A stretch of DNA of 64,000 nt from Streptomyces sp. NBC_00442 (GTDB lineage: Bacteria; Actinomycetota; Actinomycetes; Streptomycetales; Streptomycetaceae). Where the stretch lies: NCBI RefSeq assembly GCF_036014195.1, contig NZ_CP107918.1:2294001-2358000 (forward strand), read 5' to 3'. Positions within the stretch are counted from its first letter, which is position 1; every line of letters begins with the position of its first letter. The notes beneath the pieces were generated by a model. That model did no database searches, was not told the DNA's origin, and worked only from the letters and a program-made list of their open reading frames with translations. Shown one piece after another: positions 53,003 to 64,000 of this stretch. A program made the translations under genes and the position numbers.

Positions 53003-55174
53003 ATGACGACCACCGCATCCCAAGACCCCACGGACCCCGGGCACCTCTCCTTCCCCCGGCACTCAGCACGCACCCAGCGCTTCACCCTCGGTGCGCCCCG
53101 CGCCTTCACCGTGTCCCCCGACGGCGAGCGCGTCGTCTTCCTCCGCTCGTCGTCGGGCACCGAACGCAGCCATCTGCTGTGGGTGCTGGACCTGGTGCGC
53201 GGTGGTGCGGAGCGCCTCGCGGCGGACCCGGGCGCGCTGCTCGGCGGCCACGATGAGCGGCTCTCCGCCCAGGAGCGCGCGCGGCGCGAACGCAGCAGGG
53301 AGGGTTCGGCCGGAATCGTCGGCTACGCCACCGACGCCGCAGTGGAGCTGGCCGCCTTCGCGCTCTCCGGGCGCCTGTTCACCGCGGAGCTGCGGGCCGG
53401 GACGGCGCGCGAACTGGCCGTGCCGGGCCCGGTGCTCGACCCCCGCCCCTCCCCCGACGGGCGCCTCGTGGCCTATGTGGCCCGGGGGGCGCTGCGGGTC
53501 GTGGGCGCCGAGGGCGAGGACGACCGCGCGCTCGCGGAGCCCGAGTCGGCCGAAGTGACGTACGGGCTCGCGGAGTTCATCGCCGCGGAGGAGATGTCCC
53601 GCTCGCGCGGCCACTGGTGGAGCCCGGAATCGGACCGCCTGCTGGTGGCCCGCGCGGACGAGGCGCCGGTGCGACGCTGGTGGATCGCCGACCCCGCCAA
53701 CCCCGGCCAGGAGCCCACGCGGGTCGCCTACCCGGCCGCCGGCACCCCCAACGCCGAGGTGCGGCTCTTCCTGTACGCACTGGACGGCGCCCGTACCGAG
53801 GTCGTCTGGGACCGGACCCGCCTCCCCTATCTCGCGAGCGTGCACTGGTCGTCCGACGGGGCGCCGCTGCTCCTGGTGCAGTCCCGGGACCAGCGCACCC
53901 AGCTCCACCTCGCCGTCGATCCCGCGTCGGGGACCACCCGGACCGTGCACGTCGACGAGGACCCCGACTGGCTCGAACTCCTGCCGGGCGTCCCGGCCTG
54001 GGCGCCGGACGGCCGGCTCGTGCGGATCGCCGACGAGGGCGGGGCGCGGGTGCTCGCCGTGGGCGACCGGACCCTGACCGGGTCCCAGTTGCACGTCAGG
54101 GCGGTGCTCGACATCGGCGAGAGCGATGTGCTGATCTCCGCGTCCGCCGGGCGCGGGACATCCGCCGCCGGACCCGGCGCCTCCGAAATCGGCGAGATCC
54201 ATGTGTACCGGGTCAATGAACTGGGCACGGAACGCGTCTCGGAGGGGGCCGGCGTGCACTCGGCGGTGCGGTCCGGGGCGGTGACCGTGGTGAGCTCCGC
54301 GCGGCCCGACCGGGCGGGGACGACGGCCAGGGTGGTGCGGGACGGCAAGGAACTGGCCACGATCGTGTCATATGCCGCCACGCCGGGCCTCTCGGTGCGG
54401 CTCCGGCTGACCGAAGGGGGCGCACAGCGCATCCCGTGCGCCGTGCTGCTTCCATCCCACTACCGGGACGCGGACGGTCCGCTGCCCGTACTGATGGATC
54501 CGTACGGCGGACCGCACGGACAGCGGGTGCTGGCCGCGCACAACGCGCATCTCGCCTCGCAGTGGCTGGCCGACCAGGGCTTCGCCGTGGTGGTCGCCGA
54601 CGGCCGCGGCACGCCGGGCCGCTCGCCCGCGTGGGAGAAGTCGGTCAGGGACGACTTCACCGTCGCCCTCGACGACCAGATCGAGGCCCTGCACGGCCTG
54701 GCCGGCGCCTATCCGCTGGATCTCGGACGGGTGGCGATGCGGGGCTGGTCCTTCGGCGGCTATCTCTCCGCGCTCGCCGTGCTGCGGCGCCCCGACGTCT
54801 TCCACGCGGGCATCGCGGGCGCCCCGGTGACGGACTGGGAGCTGTACGACACGCACTACACCGAGCGCTACCTCGGTCTGCCCGCCGAGAACCCCGGGGT
54901 CTACGCGGCCAACTCCCTTGTCGATCAAGGCGTGTTGACACAGCCGGCGAAGCCGGCCCGGCCCCTGATGGTCATCCACGGCATGGCCGACGACAACGTG
55001 GTGGTGGCGCACTCCCTGCGCCTGTCCTCCGCGCTCCTGGTCGCGGGCCACCCCCACGAGGTGCTGCCGCTCACCGGCGTGACGCACATGACCCCGCAGG
55101 AGCAGGTCGCCGAAAACCTGTTGCTCCTGCAAGTGGACTTCCTGCAGCGTTCGTTGGGGATGGTGCGCGGCTAG
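53003..55174 (+). CDS. S9-family prolyl oligopeptidase / dipeptidyl-peptidase IV-like
   Basis: 723 residues, cytoplasmic. The N-terminal ~450 residues form a beta-propeller (repeats such as RAFTVSPDGERVVFLRS); the DPP-IV-type EE helix EFIAAEEMSRSRGHWW supports an N-terminal dipeptide-cleaving enzyme. The C-terminal alpha/beta hydrolase has the elbow GWSFGGYLS (Ser583), Asp in IHGMADDNVV, and His in LTGVTHMTP. It trims peptides, preferentially after Pro or Ala. Adjacent to the oligopeptide importer operon, so it may process imported peptides. A strong terminator follows. Confidence 0.92.
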   Translation: MTTTASQDPTDPGHLSFPRHSARTQRFTLGAPRAFTVSPDGERVVFLRSSSGTERSHLLWVLDLVRGGAERLAADPGALLGGHDERLSAQERARRERSREGSAGIVGYATDAAVELAAFALSGRLFTAELRAGTARELAVPGPVLDPRPSPDGRLVAYVARGALRVVGAEGEDDRALAEPESAEVTYGLAEFIAAEEMSRSRGHWWSPESDRLLVARADEAPVRRWWIADPANPGQEPTRVAYPAAGTPNAEVRLFLYALDGARTEVVWDRTRLPYLASVHWSSDGAPLLLVQSRDQRTQLHLAVDPASGTTRTVHVDEDPDWLELLPGVPAWAPDGRLVRIADEGGARVLAVGDRTLTGSQLHVRAVLDIGESDVLISASAGRGTSAAGPGASEIGEIHVYRVNELGTERVSEGAGVHSAVRSGAVTVVSSARPDRAGTTARVVRDGKELATIVSYAATPGLSVRLRLTEGGAQRIPCAVLLPSHYRDADGPLPVLMDPYGGPHGQRVLAAHNAHLASQWLADQGFAVVVADGRGTPGRSPAWEKSVRDDFTVALDDQIEALHGLAGAYPLDLGRVAMRGWSFGGYLSALAVLRRPDVFHAGIAGAPVTDWELYDTHYTERYLGLPAENPGVYAANSLVDQGVLTQPAKPARPLMVIHGMADDNVVVAHSLRLSSALLVAGHPHEVLPLTGVTHMTPQEQVAENLLLLQVDFLQRSLGMVRG

Positions 55175-55524: not shown

Positions 55525-56562
55525 ATGACGAGTTCCACAAGAGCTGCCATGGAGCCGACCGATCCACTTTCCGAAGAAGGCGGCGGTCCCACCCCTGACA
55601 GTGGTATGGAAGTAAAGACGAGTGAACTTGTCGGGCGGTCACCCGGGCGTCTCGCGTGGGTCCGGTTCAAACGCGACAAAGTCGGAATCCTTTGCGCCTT
55701 TACGGTTCTCGGATTCGTCCTGGTCGCGGTGGCCGCTCCACTCATCTCCAAGCTGTACGGCAAGGACCCGTATCAGCTGTACGGGCAGGACCGCGGGCTG
55801 CTGAACAGCTTCGGCACGCCGCTCAAGCCCAACGGCGGGATCGACGGCGACTTCTGGTTCGGCCTCGAGCCGAGGCTGGGCCGCGACGTCTTCACGCTGC
55901 TGATCTACGGCATCCGCACCTCGCTGCTCATCGCCCTGGCGGTGACCGTGGTCGCGGTGGTCATCGGGGTCCTGGTGGGCCTGGTGCAGGGGTACCTGGG
56001 CGGCAGGACCGACTACTTCGTCGGCCGGTTCTCGGACCTGATGCTGTCCTTCCCCGCGCAGTTGTTCTTCATCGCCTTCACACCGGTGATCGTGGCCCTC
56101 TTCGTCTCCCCCACCGAAGAGGAGCCGACGTACGTCCGCGTGGTCGCGCTGATCATCGTGCAGCTGCTCCTGGGCTGGATGACGATGGGCCGGCTCATCC
56201 GGGCCCAGGTGCTCTCGCTGCGCGAACGCGAGTTCATCGAGGCGGCCCGGCTCAGCGGCGCGTCGGGGTGGCGGATCATCCGCAAGGAGCTGCTGCCCAA
56301 CATCTGGTCGACCGTGCTCGTGCAGGCGACGCTGCTGCTGCCGGTCAACGTGACCGCCGAGGCCGGGCTGTCCTACCTCGGCGTCGGAGTGAAGAGCCCC
56401 ACGCCCGACTGGGGGCTGCTCTTCCAGGCCGGGGCCACGTACTACGACTCCGATCTCACCTTCATGTTCTTCCCCGGCATCGCGATGGTCGTCTTCGTCG
56501 TCGCGTTCAACCTGCTCGGGGATTCGGTCCGGGACGCTCTCGACCCCAAGACCGTGCGCTGA
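55525..56562 (+). CDS. Oligopeptide/dipeptide ABC transporter permease (DppC/OppC-like)
   Basis: 345 residues. An N-terminal cytoplasmic stretch, the OppC_N helix (KVGILCAFTVLGFVLVAVAAPLI), then five further helices. The EAA loop that docks the ATPase is EFIEAARLSGASGWRIIRKELLPN (~215-238). ATG 55525 (MTSSTRAAMEPTD) with a weak ribosome binding site. First gene of the five-gene operon; the order C, A, B, D, F (permease, binding protein, permease, two ATPases) differs from the common A-B-C-D-F order. Confidence 0.92.
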   Translation: MTSSTRAAMEPTDPLSEEGGGPTPDSGMEVKTSELVGRSPGRLAWVRFKRDKVGILCAFTVLGFVLVAVAAPLISKLYGKDPYQLYGQDRGLLNSFGTPLKPNGGIDGDFWFGLEPRLGRDVFTLLIYGIRTSLLIALAVTVVAVVIGVLVGLVQGYLGGRTDYFVGRFSDLMLSFPAQLFFIAFTPVIVALFVSPTEEEPTYVRVVALIIVQLLLGWMTMGRLIRAQVLSLREREFIEAARLSGASGWRIIRKELLPNIWSTVLVQATLLLPVNVTAEAGLSYLGVGVKSPTPDWGLLFQAGATYYDSDLTFMFFPGIAMVVFVVAFNLLGDSVRDALDPKTVR

Positions 56563-56591
56563 ATTCCGATCATCCTGACAGGCAGGAATCC

Positions 56592-58373
56592 ATGAGAATA
56601 AACAAGGCGCGCCAGGTTTCCGCGGTTCTGGCGGTGGGGGCCCTGGCGCTGACGGCCGCGTGCAGCAGCGGCGGCGCCAGTGACAACGGCTCGGGCTCGG
56701 ACTCGGGCAAGAAGGCCCAGGTACAGAACTTCGGTGTGGGCACCAAGGCGGACTCCACCGGCCCCGCCGTCGCCGTCGACGGCGCCAAGAAGGGCGGCAC
56801 CGCCTACAGCCTCGACCAAGCGGGCTTCGACTACCTGGACCCGGGCCAGCAGTACGTGAGCGACCAGCTCTCGGTGCAGCTGCTCTACAACCGCTCGCTC
56901 ACGGGTTACAAGGTCGACCCGAAGACCGGCAAGACGACCATCGTCGGCGACCTCGCGACCGATGCCGGCACCCCGTCCGACGGCTCGAAGACCTGGACCT
57001 ACACCCTGAAGGACGGGGTGAAGTTCGAGGACGGCACGCCGATCACCACCAAGGACATCAAGTACGGCATCGAGCGGCTCTTCGCCGACTACCAGACGCA
57101 GGGCCCGCAGTACGTCCAGAAGTGGATCTACGGCGACAACTACCGCAAGGAGTACGCGGGTCCCTACGACGGCAAGGAGATCCCTGACGACCACATCTCC
57201 ACCCCCGACGACAAGACCATCGTCTTCCACTTCCTGCAGCCGCACGCGGACACCCCGTACGCGATGGCGATGCCCAACATCTCTCCGGTCCCCAAGGCCA
57301 AGGACGACAAGCAGAAGTACAACAACCACCCCGTCGCCACCGGCCCGTACAAGATCGCGGACTACAAGCCGGGCAAGTCGCTGACCTTCGAGCGCAACCC
57401 CAGCTGGGACCCGAAGACGGACCCGATCCGCAACGCCTACCCGGACAAGTGGGAGTTCCAGCTCGGCATCCAGGAGCCGGGGCTCACCAACCGGCTCGCG
57501 GCCGACACCGGGACCGACAAGTTCGCCATCAACATGTCGAACTCGGCCGACCCGTCGAAGATGCAGTCGCTGACCACCGACGCGCAGTACAAGAGCCGGA
57601 CGGTCAACGAGTACCAGCCGTACGTCGAGGTCTTCAACATCAACACCAAGCGCATCAAGGACCCGAAGGTCCGCCAGGCGCTGGCCTACGCCTTCCCGAT
57701 GCAGCAGGTGCAGCAGGCGTTCGGCGGCGGCGCCCAGGGCGACCTCGGCACCACGCTGATCAGCCCGACCGTGGCCGGCTGGAAGAAGTTCGACCCGTTC
57801 GGCAAGCTCGCCAAGCCCATGGGCGACCCGCAGAAGTCGCTCGACCTCCTCAAGGAGGCCGGCGTCACCACCCCGTACAAGATCTCGCTGGCGTACGCGA
57901 ACACCCCGCGCTGGGACAACGTCACGCTGACCATCCAGAACGCCCTGCAGAAGGCCGGCTTCAAGGTGGAGCGCAAGGCCATCGACCCGACCTCGTACTA
58001 CACGGTGGTCGGCAAGGTGGACACCCCGTACGACATGTACCGCACCGGCTGGGGCGCGGACTGGCCGAGCGGCTCGACGGTCATCCCGCCGACCATGGAC
58101 GGGCGCAACCTGGCGGACGGCACCAACAACTACTCGTTCCTGAACGACCCGAAGGTCAACTCCGAGATCGACCGCATCAACCAGATCACGGACCTGACCA
58201 AGCAGGCCGACGAGTGGCGCACGCTCTCCGAGTACGTGCTCAAGACCGACACGTCGCAGATTCCGTTCATCTTCGACAAGTACTTCAACCTGTACGGTTC
58301 CGGGCTCGGCGGCGTCACCTACAACGAGGTCTACGGGACGATCAACCCGAACACGATCTTCGTGAAGCAATAG
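56592..58373 (+). CDS. Oligopeptide ABC transporter substrate-binding lipoprotein
   Basis: 593 residues. The lipobox LTAAC places the lipidated Cys at residue 24; the mature part is a family-5 solute-binding protein (SBP_bac_5), with TWTYTLKDGVKFEDGTPITTKDIKYGIERLF, DKTIVFHFLQPHADTPYAMAMP, KVRQALAYAFPMQQVQQAF and MYRTGWGADWPSG. It captures peptides outside the membrane for the permeases encoded by the flanking genes. A hairpin follows the gene and may raise its expression relative to the downstream genes. Confidence 0.93.
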   Translation: MRINKARQVSAVLAVGALALTAACSSGGASDNGSGSDSGKKAQVQNFGVGTKADSTGPAVAVDGAKKGGTAYSLDQAGFDYLDPGQQYVSDQLSVQLLYNRSLTGYKVDPKTGKTTIVGDLATDAGTPSDGSKTWTYTLKDGVKFEDGTPITTKDIKYGIERLFADYQTQGPQYVQKWIYGDNYRKEYAGPYDGKEIPDDHISTPDDKTIVFHFLQPHADTPYAMAMPNISPVPKAKDDKQKYNNHPVATGPYKIADYKPGKSLTFERNPSWDPKTDPIRNAYPDKWEFQLGIQEPGLTNRLAADTGTDKFAINMSNSADPSKMQSLTTDAQYKSRTVNEYQPYVEVFNINTKRIKDPKVRQALAYAFPMQQVQQAFGGGAQGDLGTTLISPTVAGWKKFDPFGKLAKPMGDPQKSLDLLKEAGVTTPYKISLAYANTPRWDNVTLTIQNALQKAGFKVERKAIDPTSYYTVVGKVDTPYDMYRTGWGADWPSGSTVIPPTMDGRNLADGTNNYSFLNDPKVNSEIDRINQITDLTKQADEWRTLSEYVLKTDTSQIPFIFDKYFNLYGSGLGGVTYNEVYGTINPNTIFVKQ

Positions 58374-58384
58374 CATCTGCGGCT

Positions 58385-58418
58385 CGGTTTCCCCGGCCCG
58401 GCTGGGCCGGGGAAACCG
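58385..58418 (+). terminator. 15-bp hairpin between binding protein and second permease genes
   Basis: CGGTTTCCCCGGCCC / GGGCCGGGGAAACCG with a GGCT loop, inside the operon. It is likely a partial terminator or mRNA-stabilising element giving more binding protein than permease. Confidence 0.8.
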
Positions 58419-58441
58419 CTTAGCGACGGAAGAGTCAACCG

Positions 58442-59419
58442 ATGTTGCGTTTCCTCGTGCGCCGCGTGCTCGGTGCCATGGTCATCCTGCTACTGATCAG
58501 CATGATCACCTATTTTCTCTTCTTCTTCCTGCCGGCCGACCCGGCCCAGCTTTCCTGCGGCAAACAGTGCAGTCCCCAAAATGTCGCCCTGATCCGCAAG
58601 AACCTCGGTCTCGACCTGCCGATCTGGACGCAGTACTGGCATTACATGGTGGGCATTTTCGCGGGCCGTCACATGCCCATCGGAGACTGCCCGGCGCCCT
58701 GTTTCGGCTACTCCTTCGCCAATCAGCAGCCCGTCTGGGGCACGATCGCCGACAGCTATCCCACGACGCTGTCGCTCGCGGTCGGCGGCGCGGCGGTCTT
58801 CCTCACCGTCGGGGTCTCGCTCGGTCTCATCTCGGCCTGGCGTCAGGGCACGGTCTTCGACCGGGTGGCCAGCTCCTTCTCCCTGCTCGGGCAGTCGGTG
58901 CAGATCTACTTCATCGGCCCGCTCGCGATCCTGCTCTTCTCCACCAAACTGCACTGGCTCAACCGGGGCCATGACGTCGACTGGAAACACGACGCGTTGG
59001 GTTCGGTCGGCGGAATGATCCTGCCCTGTCTGGTTCTCTCGGTGATCTTCTGGTCCAACTACAGCCGCCAGACACGGTCGTTGATGGTGGAGCAGCTGTC
59101 GGAGGACCACATCAGGGCGGCTCGCGCCAAGGGAATGTCGTCCCGGTACGTCTTCTTCCGCTACGCCCTGCGCGGTGCGATGGCCACCATCATCACCATC
59201 TTCGGCGTGGACCTCAGCGCGGTGCTCGGCGGCGCGATCATCACCGAGGTCACCTTCGGGCTGCACGGCCTGGGCCTGCTCTCGGTGTCGGCCGTGCTGA
59301 GCAGCGACCTGCCGCTGGAGATGGCCGTCATGCTCATCGGCGCCACCATCATCGTGCTCTGCAACATCGTCGTCGACATGGCGTACGCCTTCATCGACCC
59401 CCGGATCAGGCTCACCTGA
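58442..59419 (+). CDS. Oligopeptide/dipeptide ABC transporter permease (DppB/OppB-like)
   Basis: 325 residues, six helices. Start MLRFLVRRVLGAMVILLLISMITYFLFFFLPADPA is typical of OppB/DppB. The ATPase-docking loop is DHIRAARAKGMSSRYVFFRYALRG (~222-245). A periplasmic loop carries cysteines (LSCGKQCSPQN; GDCPAPCFGY) that could form disulfides, unusual for this family. Partner of the DppC-like permease at 55525. Confidence 0.92.
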   Translation: MLRFLVRRVLGAMVILLLISMITYFLFFFLPADPAQLSCGKQCSPQNVALIRKNLGLDLPIWTQYWHYMVGIFAGRHMPIGDCPAPCFGYSFANQQPVWGTIADSYPTTLSLAVGGAAVFLTVGVSLGLISAWRQGTVFDRVASSFSLLGQSVQIYFIGPLAILLFSTKLHWLNRGHDVDWKHDALGSVGGMILPCLVLSVIFWSNYSRQTRSLMVEQLSEDHIRAARAKGMSSRYVFFRYALRGAMATIITIFGVDLSAVLGGAIITEVTFGLHGLGLLSVSAVLSSDLPLEMAVMLIGATIIVLCNIVVDMAYAFIDPRIRLT

Positions 59420-59450
59420 CACCCGCAGACCACCCACAGGAGAACCGCCC

Positions 59451-60518
59451 GTGTCCACCTTGAGCCAGACCGCCGCCATTCCGGCGGCCCGAGGGGCCTC
59501 CTCCTTCCTCTCGGTCCGCGACCTGTACGTGCACTTCGCCACCGAGGACGGCACCGTCAAGGCCGTCGACGGACTCTCCTTCGACCTGGAGCGCGGCTCC
59601 ACGCTCGGCATCGTCGGCGAGTCGGGCTCCGGCAAGTCGGTGACCAACCTCGCGGTCCTGGGGCTGCACAACCCGCGCAACACCACGATCCAGGGCGAGA
59701 TCCTGCTCGACGGGCAGGAGCTGACCGGCGCCACGGAGCGGCAGCTGAACCGGCTGCGCGGCAAGAAGATGGCGATGATCTTCCAGGACTCGCTGGCCGC
59801 GCTCTCGCCGTTCTACACCGTGGGCCGCCAGATAGCCGAGCCCTTCATGAAGCACACCGGCGCCAACCGCCGCGAGGCGCGGGCGCGGGCCGTGGACATG
59901 CTGCGCAAGGTCGGCATCCCGCAGCCCGAGCTCCGTGTCGACGACTATCCGCACCAGTTCTCCGGCGGCATGCGCCAGCGCGCGATGATCGCGATGGCGC
60001 TGGTCTGCGACCCGGAGCTGGTGATCGCCGACGAGCCGACCACCGCGCTCGACGTGACCGTCCAGGCGCAGATCCTCGACCTGCTCAAGGACCTCCAGCA
60101 GGAGACCGGCGCGGCGATCATCATCATCACCCACGACCTCGGTGTGATCGCCAAGACCGCCGACAACGTGATGGTGATGTATGCCGGGCGGTGCGTGGAG
60201 CGCGGCACGGTCAAGGAGGTCATGCACCACCCTCAACACCCCTACAGCTGGGGCCTGATCAGCTCCATCCCGCGCCTGGACTCCTCGGTGGAGATTCCGC
60301 TGGTGCCGATCCCCGGCTCCCCGCCGAGCCTGCTGTCGCCGCCGCCGGGATGCCCGTTCCACCCGCGGTGCGGCTTCCGTGACGAGGTGCCGGCCGGCGC
60401 CTGCACCACCGCACGGCCCTCCCTCCTGGAGGCCCAACGGCGGGGTTCGGCCTGTCATCTGACGGGAGATCAGAAGGAAACCATCTTCATCGAGCAGATC
60501 CGCCCCCGGCTGCGCTGA
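59451..60518 (+). CDS. Oligopeptide ABC transporter ATPase (DppD/OppD-like)
   Basis: 355 residues. Walker A GESGSGKS, signature [15 protein letters not shown], Walker [14 protein letters not shown]-loop ITHDLG, and a C-terminal oligo_HPY region with Cys residues ([12 protein letters not shown]...GACTT) that in related proteins may bind a 4Fe-4S cluster. It energises peptide uptake with the DppF-like protein. GTG start 59451 after AGGAG. Follows the permease with a 31-base gap. Confidence 0.93.
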
Positions 60519-60538
60519 GAAGGATTCGGGACATCGCC

Positions 60539-61669
60539 ATGAGTGAGAAGACCATCAGCGTCGCCAAGGACCCGGGCGCCTCGTCCGGGCCCGGCACCAC
60601 GACCCCGCTGCTCGAAGTGAACGGGCTCACCAAGTACTTCCCGATCACCATGGGGTCGTTCTTCAAGCGGCACGTCGGCGACGTGCGGGCCGTCGACGGC
60701 ATCGACTTCCAGATCGGCCGGGGCGAGACCCTGGGCCTGGTGGGCGAGTCGGGCTGCGGGAAGTCGACCACCGGCCGCCTGGTCACCCGGCTCCTGGAGC
60801 CGACCGCGGGCGAGATCCGCTACGCCGGCCAGGACATCACGCACGCCTCACGACGGGGGCTCGCGCCGGTCAGGTCCGAGATCCAGATGATCTTCCAGGA
60901 CCCGTACGCGTCCCTCAACCCGCGCCAGACGGTCGGCGACATCATCGCCAACCCGATGGAGGTCAACGGCATCAAGCCCGCGGGCGGCACCGAACGGCGG
61001 GTCCGCGAGCTCCTGGAGACCGTGGGCCTCAACCCGGAGCACTACAACCGCTTCCCGCACGAGTTCTCCGGCGGCCAGCGCCAACGCATCGGCGTGGCAC
61101 GGGCGTTGGGCCTCGATCCCAAGCTGATCGTGGCCGACGAGCCGGTCTCGGCGCTCGACGTGTCGATCCAGGCGCAGGTGGTCAACCTGCTCCAGGAGCT
61201 CCAGCGGGAGCTGGACATCGCGTTCCTGTTCATCGCCCACGACCTGGCGATCGTGCGGCACTTCTCGCAGCGGGTCGCGGTCATGTACCTGGGCCGGATC
61301 GTCGAGGTCGGCGATCGCGACTCGATCTACCGCAGGCCCCGCCATCCGTACACCCACGCCCTGCTGTCGGCGGTGCCGGAGGCCGTGGTGGAGGAGGAGG
61401 GCGAGGGCCGCGAGCGGATCCGGCTCGCGGGTGACGTGCCGTCGCCGGTCAACCCGCCGTCCGGCTGCCGCTTCCGCACCCGCTGCTGGAAGGCGCGGGA
61501 CAAGTGCGCCGCCGAGACTCCCCCGCTGGTCCGCATCGAGGGCAACCGGGAGGGGCACCTGACGGCGTGCCACTTCCCGGAGGAACCGACGGTCGCGGCA
61601 CGGGACGAGGACGTGGTCCTCGACCCGGCGCTGGTCGCGATCGAGGAGGCGGCACCGGACACCCATTGA
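60539..61669 (+). CDS. Oligopeptide ABC transporter ATPase (DppF/OppF-like)
   Basis: 376 residues. Walker A GESGCGKS, signature FSGGQRQRIGVARAL, Walker [14 protein letters not shown]-loop IAHDLAIVRH and C-terminal oligo_HPY segment [17 protein letters not shown]. It pairs with the DppD-like ATPase. The C-terminal segment is almost the same as that of the ATPase cut by the right edge, so the two are close paralogues. Last gene of the operon; a hairpin follows at 61698. Confidence 0.93.
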   Translation: MSEKTISVAKDPGASSGPGTTTPLLEVNGLTKYFPITMGSFFKRHVGDVRAVDGIDFQIGRGETLGLVGESGCGKSTTGRLVTRLLEPTAGEIRYAGQDITHASRRGLAPVRSEIQMIFQDPYASLNPRQTVGDIIANPMEVNGIKPAGGTERRVRELLETVGLNPEHYNRFPHEFSGGQRQRIGVARALGLDPKLIVADEPVSALDVSIQAQVVNLLQELQRELDIAFLFIAHDLAIVRHFSQRVAVMYLGRIVEVGDRDSIYRRPRHPYTHALLSAVPEAVVEEEGEGRERIRLAGDVPSPVNPPSGCRFRTRCWKARDKCAAETPPLVRIEGNREGHLTACHFPEEPTVAARDEDVVLDPALVAIEEAAPDTH

Positions 61670-61697
61670 CCCGAGTCCGCAGCCTCCGCTCGGAAAA

Positions 61698-61738
61698 GGC
61701 CCGCACCCGTACACCCCAGCACCACACGGGCGCGGGCC
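61698..61738 (+). terminator. Hairpin terminator ending the opp operon
   Basis: GGCCCGC-A-CCCGT / ACGGG-C-GCGGGCC with a 15-17-nt loop, about 30 bases after the last ATPase stop. It separates the importer operon from the RiPP cassette. Confidence 0.75.
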
Positions 61739-61842
61739 GCTCCATGTCCGGCCTACGGCGCCTGCCTTTGGACGAATTAATTCCGGTTGCCGCAGGTGAA
61801 TGGGGCGCGGACAGTAGATAGCACGGAGAAGAAAGTCAACTC

Positions 61843-61871
61843 TTGTTACTCCCGAGGCAATTGCTTAGTGT
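61843..61871 (+). promoter_or_regulatory. Predicted promoter of the RiPP cassette
   Basis: TTGTTA (-35, 61843-61848), 17-base spacer, TAGTGT (-10, 61866-61871), in an AT-rich stretch. Transcription would start near 61878, leaving a ~55-base leader before the ATG at 61933. Confidence 0.55.
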
Positions 61872-61932
61872 TCAGGGCAGATCGCGGCCCGATAACCAGA
61901 TCGTGGACGCTTTGCTGAGAGGGAGAATTACC

Positions 61933-62016
61933 ATGCGCAAGCTGATCCTGACCGGTGCCCTGTTCGCCCGCCTTTCCCGCAAGGACCGTCTCACCAAGGC
62001 GTACATCTACTACTAG
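61933..62016 (+). CDS. Cittilin-type RiPP precursor peptide, core YIYY
   Basis: 27-residue peptide. ATG 61933 has GAGAGGGAG 7-15 bases upstream. Residues 1-22 are a basic, amphipathic leader (MRKLILTGALFARLSRKD then RLTK) and the C-terminus is Ala-Tyr-Ile-Tyr-Tyr, stop TAG at 62014. The Tyr-Ile-Tyr-Tyr end is the core of cittilin from Myxococcus and, as I recall, of RP-66453 from an actinomycete; in cittilin a 27-residue precursor is cross-linked by a P450 at its tyrosines. Atropopeptide cores such as AWYIWY are also similar. Directly followed by a P450 gene, which strongly supports the call. Codon third positions are G/C as in real genes. Too short for usual gene finders. Confidence 0.88.
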   Translation: MRKLILTGALFARLSRKDRLTKAYIYY

Positions 62017-62047
62017 GCCGAACCGGCACTAGACGTAGGTCCATGAT

Positions 62048-62081
62048 CCGGTGGCCGGGGCGCACACGCCTCGGCCACCGG
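62048..62081 (+). terminator. Hairpin between RiPP precursor and P450 genes
   Basis: CCGGTGGCCGGGGCG / CGCCTCGGCCACCGG (14 of 15 pairs, CACA loop), 32 bases after the precursor stop. A partial terminator or stabilising stem here would give many precursor copies per enzyme, a common RiPP arrangement. Confidence 0.75.
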
Positions 62082-62120
62082 CGTTTCTCCGCCCCTCCTC
62101 GATCGTCAAGTGAGGCCGTC

Positions 62121-63443
62121 GTGACCGCAGTCGATACCGTAACCGGCATCCCGGGCCCGGCCGATGACTCCTACCTGGGAAATCTGCACGCCTTCTCCAG
62201 CGACCCGCTCGCATTCCTCACCCGGTGCGCCCGCGACTACGGGGACGTGGTGCGGCTCGGCGACCACAATGTACTTCTGACTGGCCCCGAACTCGTCGAG
62301 CGGATGCTGGTGGACCGGAATGGAGTATTCAGTAAGAAAGGAATTGAGGATTCCGGGAGAGCGGCCCGCGGAAGGGGTTTTCCGCGGGCCATGATGAACA
62401 GCGACGGAGCGGACTGGAAAGCGAAACGGCAGCGTATGCAGCCCGCGTTCGGCCGCACGCTCGCGGTGAAGGCGGCCGGACTCGTCGACGCACAGGGCGA
62501 ACGCATGCTGGCCGGATGGCGGCCCGGCGAGCGGCGCGATCTGCACGGCGACGTCTCGGTGCTGATCCTGCGCCTGGTCACGCAGCTGATGTTCGGCGAC
62601 GAGTTCACCGACCAGGACGCGGCCCTGGTCTCCCGGCTGGTCCGCCCGATCATGGAGCTGTCCACCTCGCCGCTGCTGCTGCCCGACTGGATACCCACCC
62701 CGCGCCATCTGCGGCTCAGGCGCGGCCTGCGCGACATGGACCGGCTCCTGCGCCGGCTCACCGGGAATCCGGCCGCCGTCGACGCGGAGCGCGCCCCCGT
62801 GCTGCACGCCCTCGTCACCGGCACCCCCGCGCCCTCCCCCGCGGAGCTGCGCGACGAGCTGGCGACGCTCGTCCTGTCGGCGTTCGAGACGTCCAACGAC
62901 GCGGTGGTGTGGACGAGTGTGCTGCTCGCCCGGCATCCCGAGGCCGCGCTGCGGGTACGCGACGAGGCCGTCGCCGCGTTCGCCTCCACCCCGCCCGGCC
63001 TGGCCCGGATGGAGCAACTGCCCTATACCAGCGCGGTGGTTCGCGAGTCGCTGCGCCTGTACTCGCCGGCCTGGATGACGAGCCGCGACTCGACGGCCGA
63101 CCTGGAGTTCGGCGGCTTCACCGTGCCGGCCGGCACCACCGTGACGGTGAGCCAGTGGGTCAACCACCGCGACCCCCGGCACTGGGAGCGCGCCGGGGAA
63201 TTCGACCCGGAGCGCTGGCTGGAGGGCGGCGCCAGGAAGATGCCGCGCGGCTCCTACTTCCCGTTCGGGCTCGGCGCGCGGGCCTGCATCGGCGCCTCGC
63301 TCGCCACCACCGAGATCGTGCACATCGTGGCCGACATCTGGCGCCGCCACCGCCTTGAGCTCGTCGACCCCGAAGGCATCACCCCGCGCCCGGCGCTCGC
63401 CCTCCAGCCGATGGGCGTGCGGGTCGTACCGCGCGCGTGGTGA
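62121..63443 (+). CDS. Cytochrome P450, probable tyrosine cross-linking enzyme of the RiPP
   Basis: 440 residues from GTG 62121 (VTAVDTVTGIPGP; GAGG five bases upstream). Heme ligand Cys389 in FPFGLGARACIG, I-helix AFETSNDAVVW with Thr257, and ExxR Glu309/Arg312 in ESLRLYSPAW are all intact, so it should be active. It lies 104 bases after the precursor gene and is the only enzyme of the cassette. In cittilin, biarylitide and atropopeptide pathways such P450s form C-C and C-O bonds between aromatic side chains; two cross-links among the three core tyrosines are predicted here. Redox partners must come from elsewhere; the ferredoxin at 41294 is a possible but unproven donor. A frame start at 62043 would run through the hairpin and is rejected. 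Confidence 0.9.
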   Translation: MTAVDTVTGIPGPADDSYLGNLHAFSSDPLAFLTRCARDYGDVVRLGDHNVLLTGPELVERMLVDRNGVFSKKGIEDSGRAARGRGFPRAMMNSDGADWKAKRQRMQPAFGRTLAVKAAGLVDAQGERMLAGWRPGERRDLHGDVSVLILRLVTQLMFGDEFTDQDAALVSRLVRPIMELSTSPLLLPDWIPTPRHLRLRRGLRDMDRLLRRLTGNPAAVDAERAPVLHALVTGTPAPSPAELRDELATLVLSAFETSNDAVVWTSVLLARHPEAALRVRDEAVAAFASTPPGLARMEQLPYTSAVVRESLRLYSPAWMTSRDSTADLEFGGFTVPAGTTVTVSQWVNHRDPRHWERAGEFDPERWLEGGARKMPRGSYFPFGLGARACIGASLATTEIVHIVADIWRRHRLELVDPEGITPRPALALQPMGVRVVPRAW

Positions 63444-63477
63444 CCGGGACCCGTACCCGAAGGCCCACTCCGCGGGC

Positions 63478-64000
63478 TCACTCCGTCGGCGGGACCACGC
63501 GCTTCTCCTCCGCGAAGTGGCAGGCGGAGGGGTGGTGGGCCGGGCCCTCGGTCATCCGGAACTCGGCCGGCACCGCGAGCAGCGGCACTTCCTGCGCGCA
63601 CCGCTCGCGCGCCTTCCAGCAGCGGGTGCGGAAGCGGCAGCCGGACGGCGGGTTGGCGGGCGAGGGCACGTCACCGGTCAGGATGATCCGTTCGCGGCGC
63701 TCGCGCGCGGCGGGATCGGGGACCGGCACCGCGGAGAGCAGCGCCTGGGTGTAGGGGTGCGTCGGGTGCTCGTAGATCTCCTCGTCCCGGCCGATCTCCA
63801 CGATCCGGCCCAGGTACATCACGCCGACCCGGTCGGAGATGTGCCGGACGATCGACAGGTCGTGTGCGATGAAGACGTAGGAGAGCGAGAACTCGCTCTG
63901 GAGGCGGTCGAGCAGGTTCACCACCTGGGCCTGCACCGACACGTCGAGCGCCGAGACCGGCTCGTCCGCCACGATGATCTCGGGCTGGAGCGCCAGCCCC
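63478..64000 (-). CDS. Oligopeptide ABC transporter ATPase, 5' end beyond the window
   Basis: Only the C-terminal ~173 residues are present; the frame is open to the right edge ([19 protein letters not shown], Walker B). The H-loop [10 protein letters not shown] and oligo_HPY tail [18 protein letters not shown] follow. It is a DppF/OppF-like ATPase, very like the one at 60539, and belongs to a second importer whose other genes lie beyond the window. Convergent with the P450 gene, 34 bases apart. Confidence 0.9.

Follow-up and report, generated by a model that had tools for sequence, protein, structure and literature searches.

The cittilins of Myxococcus xanthus are built on the core Tyr-Ile-Tyr-Tyr, and RP-66453 is an actinomycete product, the same YIYY bicycle in unmethylated form. 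In the cittilin passages of PMC8708641, biosynthesis is described as requiring only a 27-residue precursor and the P450 CitB, which give a tetrapeptide bridged by a biaryl and an aryl-oxy-aryl link. According to the same passages, non-myxobacterial cittilin clusters have no methyltransferase, and the biological function of the bridged peptides is called unknown (PMC8708641). The actinomycete products shandoamide, syrinamides A-B and citreamide (san, syr and cre clusters) are P450-modified RiPPs of the cittilin type obtained from mined clusters expressed in S. albus J1074, and one survey counted 1057 P450-RiPP clusters (sections of PMC12299652 and PMC12352619). Biarylitides and myxarylin also arise from a minimal precursor and a cross-linking P450, but their precursors are of the five-residue MxYxH type and receive a single cross-link (sections of PMC8708641 and PMC12951456), whereas the atropopeptide core carries a conserved first Trp (a section of PMC12352619).

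The locus analyzed here lies in a 64,000-nucleotide stretch (the window, G000:C1:2294001-2358000) of a Streptomyces genome that consists of a single contig of 7.7 Mb. The segment 61933-63443 very probably encodes a cittilin-family precursor and a P450 that would join the three core tyrosines into a bicyclic YIYY tetrapeptide. The features of this pair are as follows.

61933..62016, + strand: citA-like precursor gene (MRKLILTGALFARLSRKDRLTKA-YIYY; NF038373 cittilin_RiPP, 56.7 bits versus a cut-off of 34; purifying selection)
62002..62013, + strand: predicted core peptide Tyr-Ile-Tyr-Tyr (from the sequence; Y-x-Y-Y is terminal in 19/19 relatives read)
62121..63443, + strand: citB-like cytochrome P450 gene with a GTG start (PF00067, 195.8 bits; P450 tree; model mean pLDDT 84.5)

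The precursor reading frame starts with the ATG at 61933, ends with the stop at 62014-62016, and its 27 codons give the product MRKLILTGALFARLSRKDRLTKAYIYY. The original prediction of a 27-codon gene that encodes a leader and YIYY and has G/C in third positions was thus confirmed (GC3 of 0.89, and 0.90 in the P450 gene), and so was its assignment to the cittilin family: the curated NCBIfam model NF038373, 'cittilin family RiPP precursor', covers positions 1-27 of 27, and the gene pair is conserved. By description, the combination of a 27-residue precursor with a P450 is that of M. xanthus (citA and citB in the citA, citB, citC cluster; cittilin passages of PMC8708641). The precursor ends in the Tyr-x-Tyr-Tyr core typical of the family, and the adjacent P450 is related to those found beside other cittilin precursors. 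Likewise, the pair resembles the san, syr and cre clusters in being of the P450-modified cittilin type, a likeness of description and not of precursor sequence. With 27 residues and a YIYY end it is not an MxYxH pentapeptide of the biarylitide kind, and it lacks the Trp of the atropopeptide precursors.

The best start of the P450 is the GTG at 62121, 104 bases past citA, from which an intact frame of 440 amino acids runs to 63443. In its sequence we read FPFGLGARACIG, ESLR and AFETS, which we take to be the heme loop, the ExxR motif and the I-helix motif, respectively. The expectation of an intact P450 after the precursor therefore held, and the earlier span of 61843-63443 takes in the whole gene. 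In a structure comparison, the P450 model was nearest to CYP184A1 (7wzm and 7wzl), with CYP170A1 also scoring high. None of the 50 chains listed for the model was described as a RiPP cross-linking P450, so this model-based comparison contributes little. With the model of the aminopyruvatide P450 ApyO (NF050147), whose cut-off is 525, the window P450 scored 150 bits.

The stop codon of citA is the only one among the 1557 stop codons of the window (six frames) that follows Y-x-Y-Y. Compared with L046, L016 and L017, citA shows 1, 3 and 3 synonymous differences, respectively, and no non-synonymous difference in any of them. Within the clade formed by these four genomes, one of the six citA pairs is identical, and the other five show 1-3 synonymous changes and no non-synonymous one. 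When 12 loci were compared, the synonymous rate per site exceeded the non-synonymous rate in each citA pair that differs. Judging from these substitution patterns, citA is under purifying selection. The original prediction had made conservation of the precursor in related genomes a point on which it could fail; the pair does recur in other genomes, and within the window's clade citA differs by synonymous changes only. The uniqueness of the Y-x-Y-Y ending in the window, the recurrence of the pair elsewhere and the synonymous-only changes together mean that the arrangement is not due to chance. The idea that the small frame is a false gene call beside a P450 of the ordinary catabolic or terpene kind can draw on the fact that the P450 alone matches, for instance, the albaflavenone synthase model, but at 175 bits this match is far under the cut-off of 700. 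As it is contradicted by the conserved pairing, the curated precursor match and the purifying selection, we regard this explanation as practically negligible.

With each genome counted once, the precursor-P450 pair was read in 14 Streptomyces genomes and in five of another actinobacterial family, f91, which makes 19 in all. The residues before the core and the core itself are distributed as follows.

KA-YIYY: the window, L046 (same genome as L015), L016 and L017
LP-YSYY: L018, L163, L019, L020, L022 and L043
AP-YSYY: L021
AP-YMYY: L044 and L164
AP-YNYY: L045
f91 pairs, L147-L151: four RP-YIYY and one AP-YIYY, two of them with GTG starts

The core is thus YIYY in nine pairs, YSYY in seven, YMYY in two and YNYY in one, and it is preceded by Pro in 15 pairs and by Ala in the four of the window's clade. 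In all 19 loci the P450 lies downstream of the precursor (in L043, split over two frames). The leader of the f91 precursors is of another kind (e.g. MKRAAYRIAAKLRIIDGARLTRPYIYY), and yet they score 46.7-53.6 bits with NF038373 (four distinct sequences in five loci). Their P450s fall with proteins of Nocardiopsis and Allonocardiopsis in the P450 tree, which makes f91 likely Nocardiopsidaceae. As far as these sequences go, the three tyrosines, the length of 27 residues and a Pro or Ala ahead of the core are constant, and core position 2 is free. Relatives scanned with NF038373 also passed its cut-off (5/5 in one set and 4/4 in another).

The pair is sparsely distributed. NF038373 matched 5/392 genomes within the genus (own included) and only the own genome among the 396 of the phylum sample, and a profile of 18 P450s at 1e-110 matched 8/394 genomes of the class and 7/343 of the order (overlapping samples, both with the own genome). 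A scan of named genomes gave 27 P450 loci, with a Y-x-Y-Y-ending frame at eight of them (L015-L022); at the other 19, where the P450s are 30-38% identical, no such frame was found. Among plasmids there was no match at 1e-60, and three records had short P450-level DNA matches covering 7-17%.

In the pathway that we propose, the P450 likely binds the conserved leader and would oxidatively form one biaryl and one diaryl-ether bond among the three core tyrosines. This bond pattern is predicted by analogy; relatives make different links. It is conceivable that a P450 acting on the same precursor family makes another linkage here, a single cross-link or e.g. two biaryl bonds, so that the product would be cittilin-type but not cittilin B / RP-66453. 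The cores do vary, the window P450 is just 40-60% identical to many family members, and P450s of related RiPPs switch linkages (a section of PMC12352619). However, 19/19 precursors agree in the positions of their three tyrosines, as two shared links would require, a count in which Y-x-Y-Y was demanded by the text searches but not by the NF038373 hits or by one looser scan. On balance, a different linkage is unlikely. With the predicted biaryl and diaryl-ether bonds in place, the leader would be removed by cleavage after Ala23, through a protease whose gene lies elsewhere than in the pair. The bicyclic tetrapeptide would thereby be released, with a predicted [M+H]+ of 617.2606 (YIYY minus 4 H; 621.2919 for the linear form), and presumably exported. 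The corresponding predicted values for bicycles with Ser, Met or Asn as core residue 2 are 591.2086, 635.2170 and 618.2195, respectively.

No methyltransferase was recognised from 53003 in the window to ~8 kb past its end; the genes recognised there are a single S9 peptidase, the two genes of the pair and those of oligopeptide transporters. The product is therefore expected to be the unmethylated form, presumably cittilin B / RP-66453. In this the locus differs from that of Myxococcus, a host of another phylum, which has the O-methyltransferase CitC (a section of PMC11285071), and it fits what PMC8708641 describes for non-myxobacterial clusters.

The order of genes in the window is an S9 peptidase, five oligopeptide-transporter genes, citA, the P450 gene and then oligopeptide-transporter operons on the opposite strand. 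The two neighbors upstream of the pair are as follows.

53003..55174, + strand: S9 family peptidase (PF00326 + DPPIV_N), a candidate leader peptidase; widespread and outside the cassette
55525..61669, + strand: oligopeptide ABC transporter operon (permease, binding protein, permease, ATPase, ATPase); a neighbor outside the cassette

Hug 2020, the primary cittilin paper, reportedly places a prolyl endopeptidase outside the cluster. Myxarylin likely loses its leader through a PF00326 prolyl oligopeptidase, and the biarylitide clusters characterised have no dedicated protease (sections of PMC12951456). The S9 peptidase of the window was matched in 41/41 genomes searched (own included; partial in G001 and 47% identical in G012), 24 of which are Streptomyces without NF038373. 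Hence, a role as a dedicated cluster protease is not supported, and as a recruited enzyme it is only a candidate. We also considered the prolyl oligopeptidase N-terminal domain PF02897. It is absent from the window's genome and present in 0/2 Ala-type and 1/7 Pro-type cit-positive Streptomyces, 4/31 other Streptomyces and 5/5 f91 genomes. As it is absent from 8/9 cit-positive Streptomyces tested, a protease recognised by the PF02897 model is not needed in Streptomyces, and this candidate was rejected. With PF02897 missing and with Ala where 15/19 precursors have Pro ahead of the core, no leader protease of the type described in print was recognised for the window.

The region between the transporter operon and citA contains three further elements.

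61698..61738, + strand: terminator-like hairpin at the end of the transporter operon that precedes the pair (61698-61710 pairs with 61726-61738, the window having one mismatch; kept in 4/4 close genomes)
61843..61871, + strand: putative promoter TTGTTA-N17-TAGTGT (TTGT and TAGTGT identical in 4/4 aligned close genomes)
61917..61925, + strand: citA ribosome-binding site GAGAGGGAG (7 nt ahead of the ATG; sequence reading)

The pair would be expressed from its own putative promoter, and the hairpin may act as a terminator that parts it from the operon upstream. The stem is not followed by a T run, and a terminator scan gave 0 sites. A strict sigma-70 consensus scan of 61500-63600 also gave 0 promoter sites, and it is conservation that speaks for the promoter. 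The ribosome-binding site has 8/9 bases common to the four genomes (one base differs in L016 and L017). Of the promoter and ribosome-binding site originally proposed, the latter thus stands, while the former remains putative. The GCGGCCCGATAACCAGATC stretch of the citA 5' leader is conserved across the four genomes aligned. Rfam over 61600-62300 gave two weak matches under their gathering scores and none above.

A second hairpin lies between the two genes.

62048..62081, + strand: 15-bp hairpin between the precursor and P450 genes (minimum-energy folds, shuffle tests and stem alignment)

The minimum-energy folds of all 14 Streptomyces citA-citB spacers (83 nt each) contain an uninterrupted stem of 12-15 pairs, and the longest stems in the five f91 spacers have 9, 10, 10, 10 and 14 pairs. 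For 11 of the 12 aligned Streptomyces spacers (L020 was left out), 1, 0, 0, 0, 0, 1, 0, 3, 3, 1 and 12 of 200 shuffles each folded equally well. In the nine loci with alignable stems (L021, L044 and L045 were dropped as their stem sequence differs; L163 and L164 were outside the set), 98.3% of 118 cells pair and 3/15 pairs are changed on both sides. The pairing fraction and the covariation score were each reached by 1/500 shuffles of the alignment, and the number of doubly changed pairs by 97/500. The probable role of the hairpin is to keep expression of the P450 below that of the precursor or to shield the short precursor mRNA.

In 10/14 Streptomyces loci, the gene upstream of citA is the last one of the first transporter operon (the window, L046, L016, L017, L018, L163, L019, L020, L022 and L043). 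The gap is 0.1-0.3 kb in nine of them; L043 has 1.1 kb, within which a crude gene call places a frame on the opposite strand. The second operon directly follows the pair in 8/10 of these loci, with kilobases between in L022 and L043. In L021, L044, L164 and L045 the pair is found at other chromosomal places. The first operon seemed to travel with the pair and was considered as a part of the cluster. However, it adjoins the second operon or its ATPase with the pair absent in 13/20 cit-negative Streptomyces loci (L119, L121, L123, L125-L133 and L136; all 20 genomes belong to the genus sample and none has an NF038373 match). The transporters are therefore not specific to the pair, which bears out the original two-gene reading. 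The gap at these junctions is below 0.6 kb in seven loci (L119, L121, L125, L128, L130, L131 and L136) and 1.4-7.4 kb in six, and the S9 gene is upstream in 12/13, with none found in the L119 stretch. In 6/12 regions (L077, L078, L080, L082-L084) the second operon comes after the S9 gene and the first operon is missing.

On a tree of four transporter proteins from 23 loci, the nine cit-positive loci need four changes, and their union into one clade is rejected (AU p 1.7e-37, with a long-branch warning). The same-site P450s form one clade (11 rows, 96/95) that includes P0007, of which only the P450 protein is represented. Either one old insertion followed by several losses or transfer by recombination via the shared flanks would explain this history. 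The patchy distribution and the four changes could also mean that this is a silent or decaying cassette, left over from a cluster that is disappearing from the site, as could the relative G168 without the pair and the split P450 of G096. Yet neither gene of the window is disrupted, comparison with three close genomes shows no non-synonymous difference in citA, and both the 5' region and the hairpin are conserved; we consider a relic very unlikely. The closest cit-negative relative by its operon (81-84% identity) is L119 of G168, with ~150 bases at the cassette junction and no S9 gene in the stretch. Because the gap between the adjacent operons (window 61669-63478; L119-L136) varies from about 0.1 to 7.4 kb in the 13 cit-negative loci, the junction may be an insertion hot spot.

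In gene order, the only aspect compared, the first operon (M, R, M, C, C) agrees with BldK and SCO5476-80 of S. coelicolor and the second (R, M, M, C, C) with SCO5117-5121 (gene orders from a section of PMC3924187). BldK imports a signal peptide for development (a section of PMC11303876). One could imagine that cross-linked YIYY is a self-made developmental signal, freed by the local S9 peptidase and re-imported by the neighboring importer, with the swaps at core residue 2 (I, S, M, N) being lineage-specific. We consider this a long shot.

The suggestion that the locus and its setting may be undescribed holds in part. Publications already cover the class, its branch in actinobacteria and several products; the locus, the history of its site, the inter-gene hairpin and the split between Ala and Pro before the core are what is added here. 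Among the open-licence papers and passages covered, none was met that reports the window locus, the shared chromosomal site, the inter-gene hairpin or the Ala/Pro split, the last three not having been search targets. The open-licence full texts gave no report of YSYY with a P450, and for YIYY there was none among the matches listed. The window provides a precise, small cassette (1.6 kb, from a genome in a single contig) with which the predicted bicyclic Tyr-Ile-Tyr-Tyr peptide could be made. The 19 pairs with their four cores form a comparison set for P450 tolerance at core position 2 and for leader cutting after Ala versus Pro, and the shared site and the inter-gene hairpin are testable handles on function.

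Several observations on the relatives can be added. In L043 (8602-9919, G096) the P450 is split over two reading frames beside an intact YSYY precursor; its residues 1-315 are 97% and residues 290-439 are 83% identical to P0007, and the split would represent decay or a sequencing error. In L156-L160 the YIYY core is unchanged, but the leader is of a second, diverged type (MKRAAYRIAAKL...) and the P450 is only 40-44% identical, so that these loci offer a natural test of leader-P450 matching. In the P450 tree, all Streptomyces rows group together (20 rows, 100/99). Comparison of the P450s alone shows those of Pendulispora and Archangium to be 55-57% and 47-48% identical to the window P450, respectively. 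Also of note is that P0015 and P0018 from the myxobacterial Pendulispora are nested in the actinobacterial part of the tree (95/90), a placement that hints at transfer between phyla.
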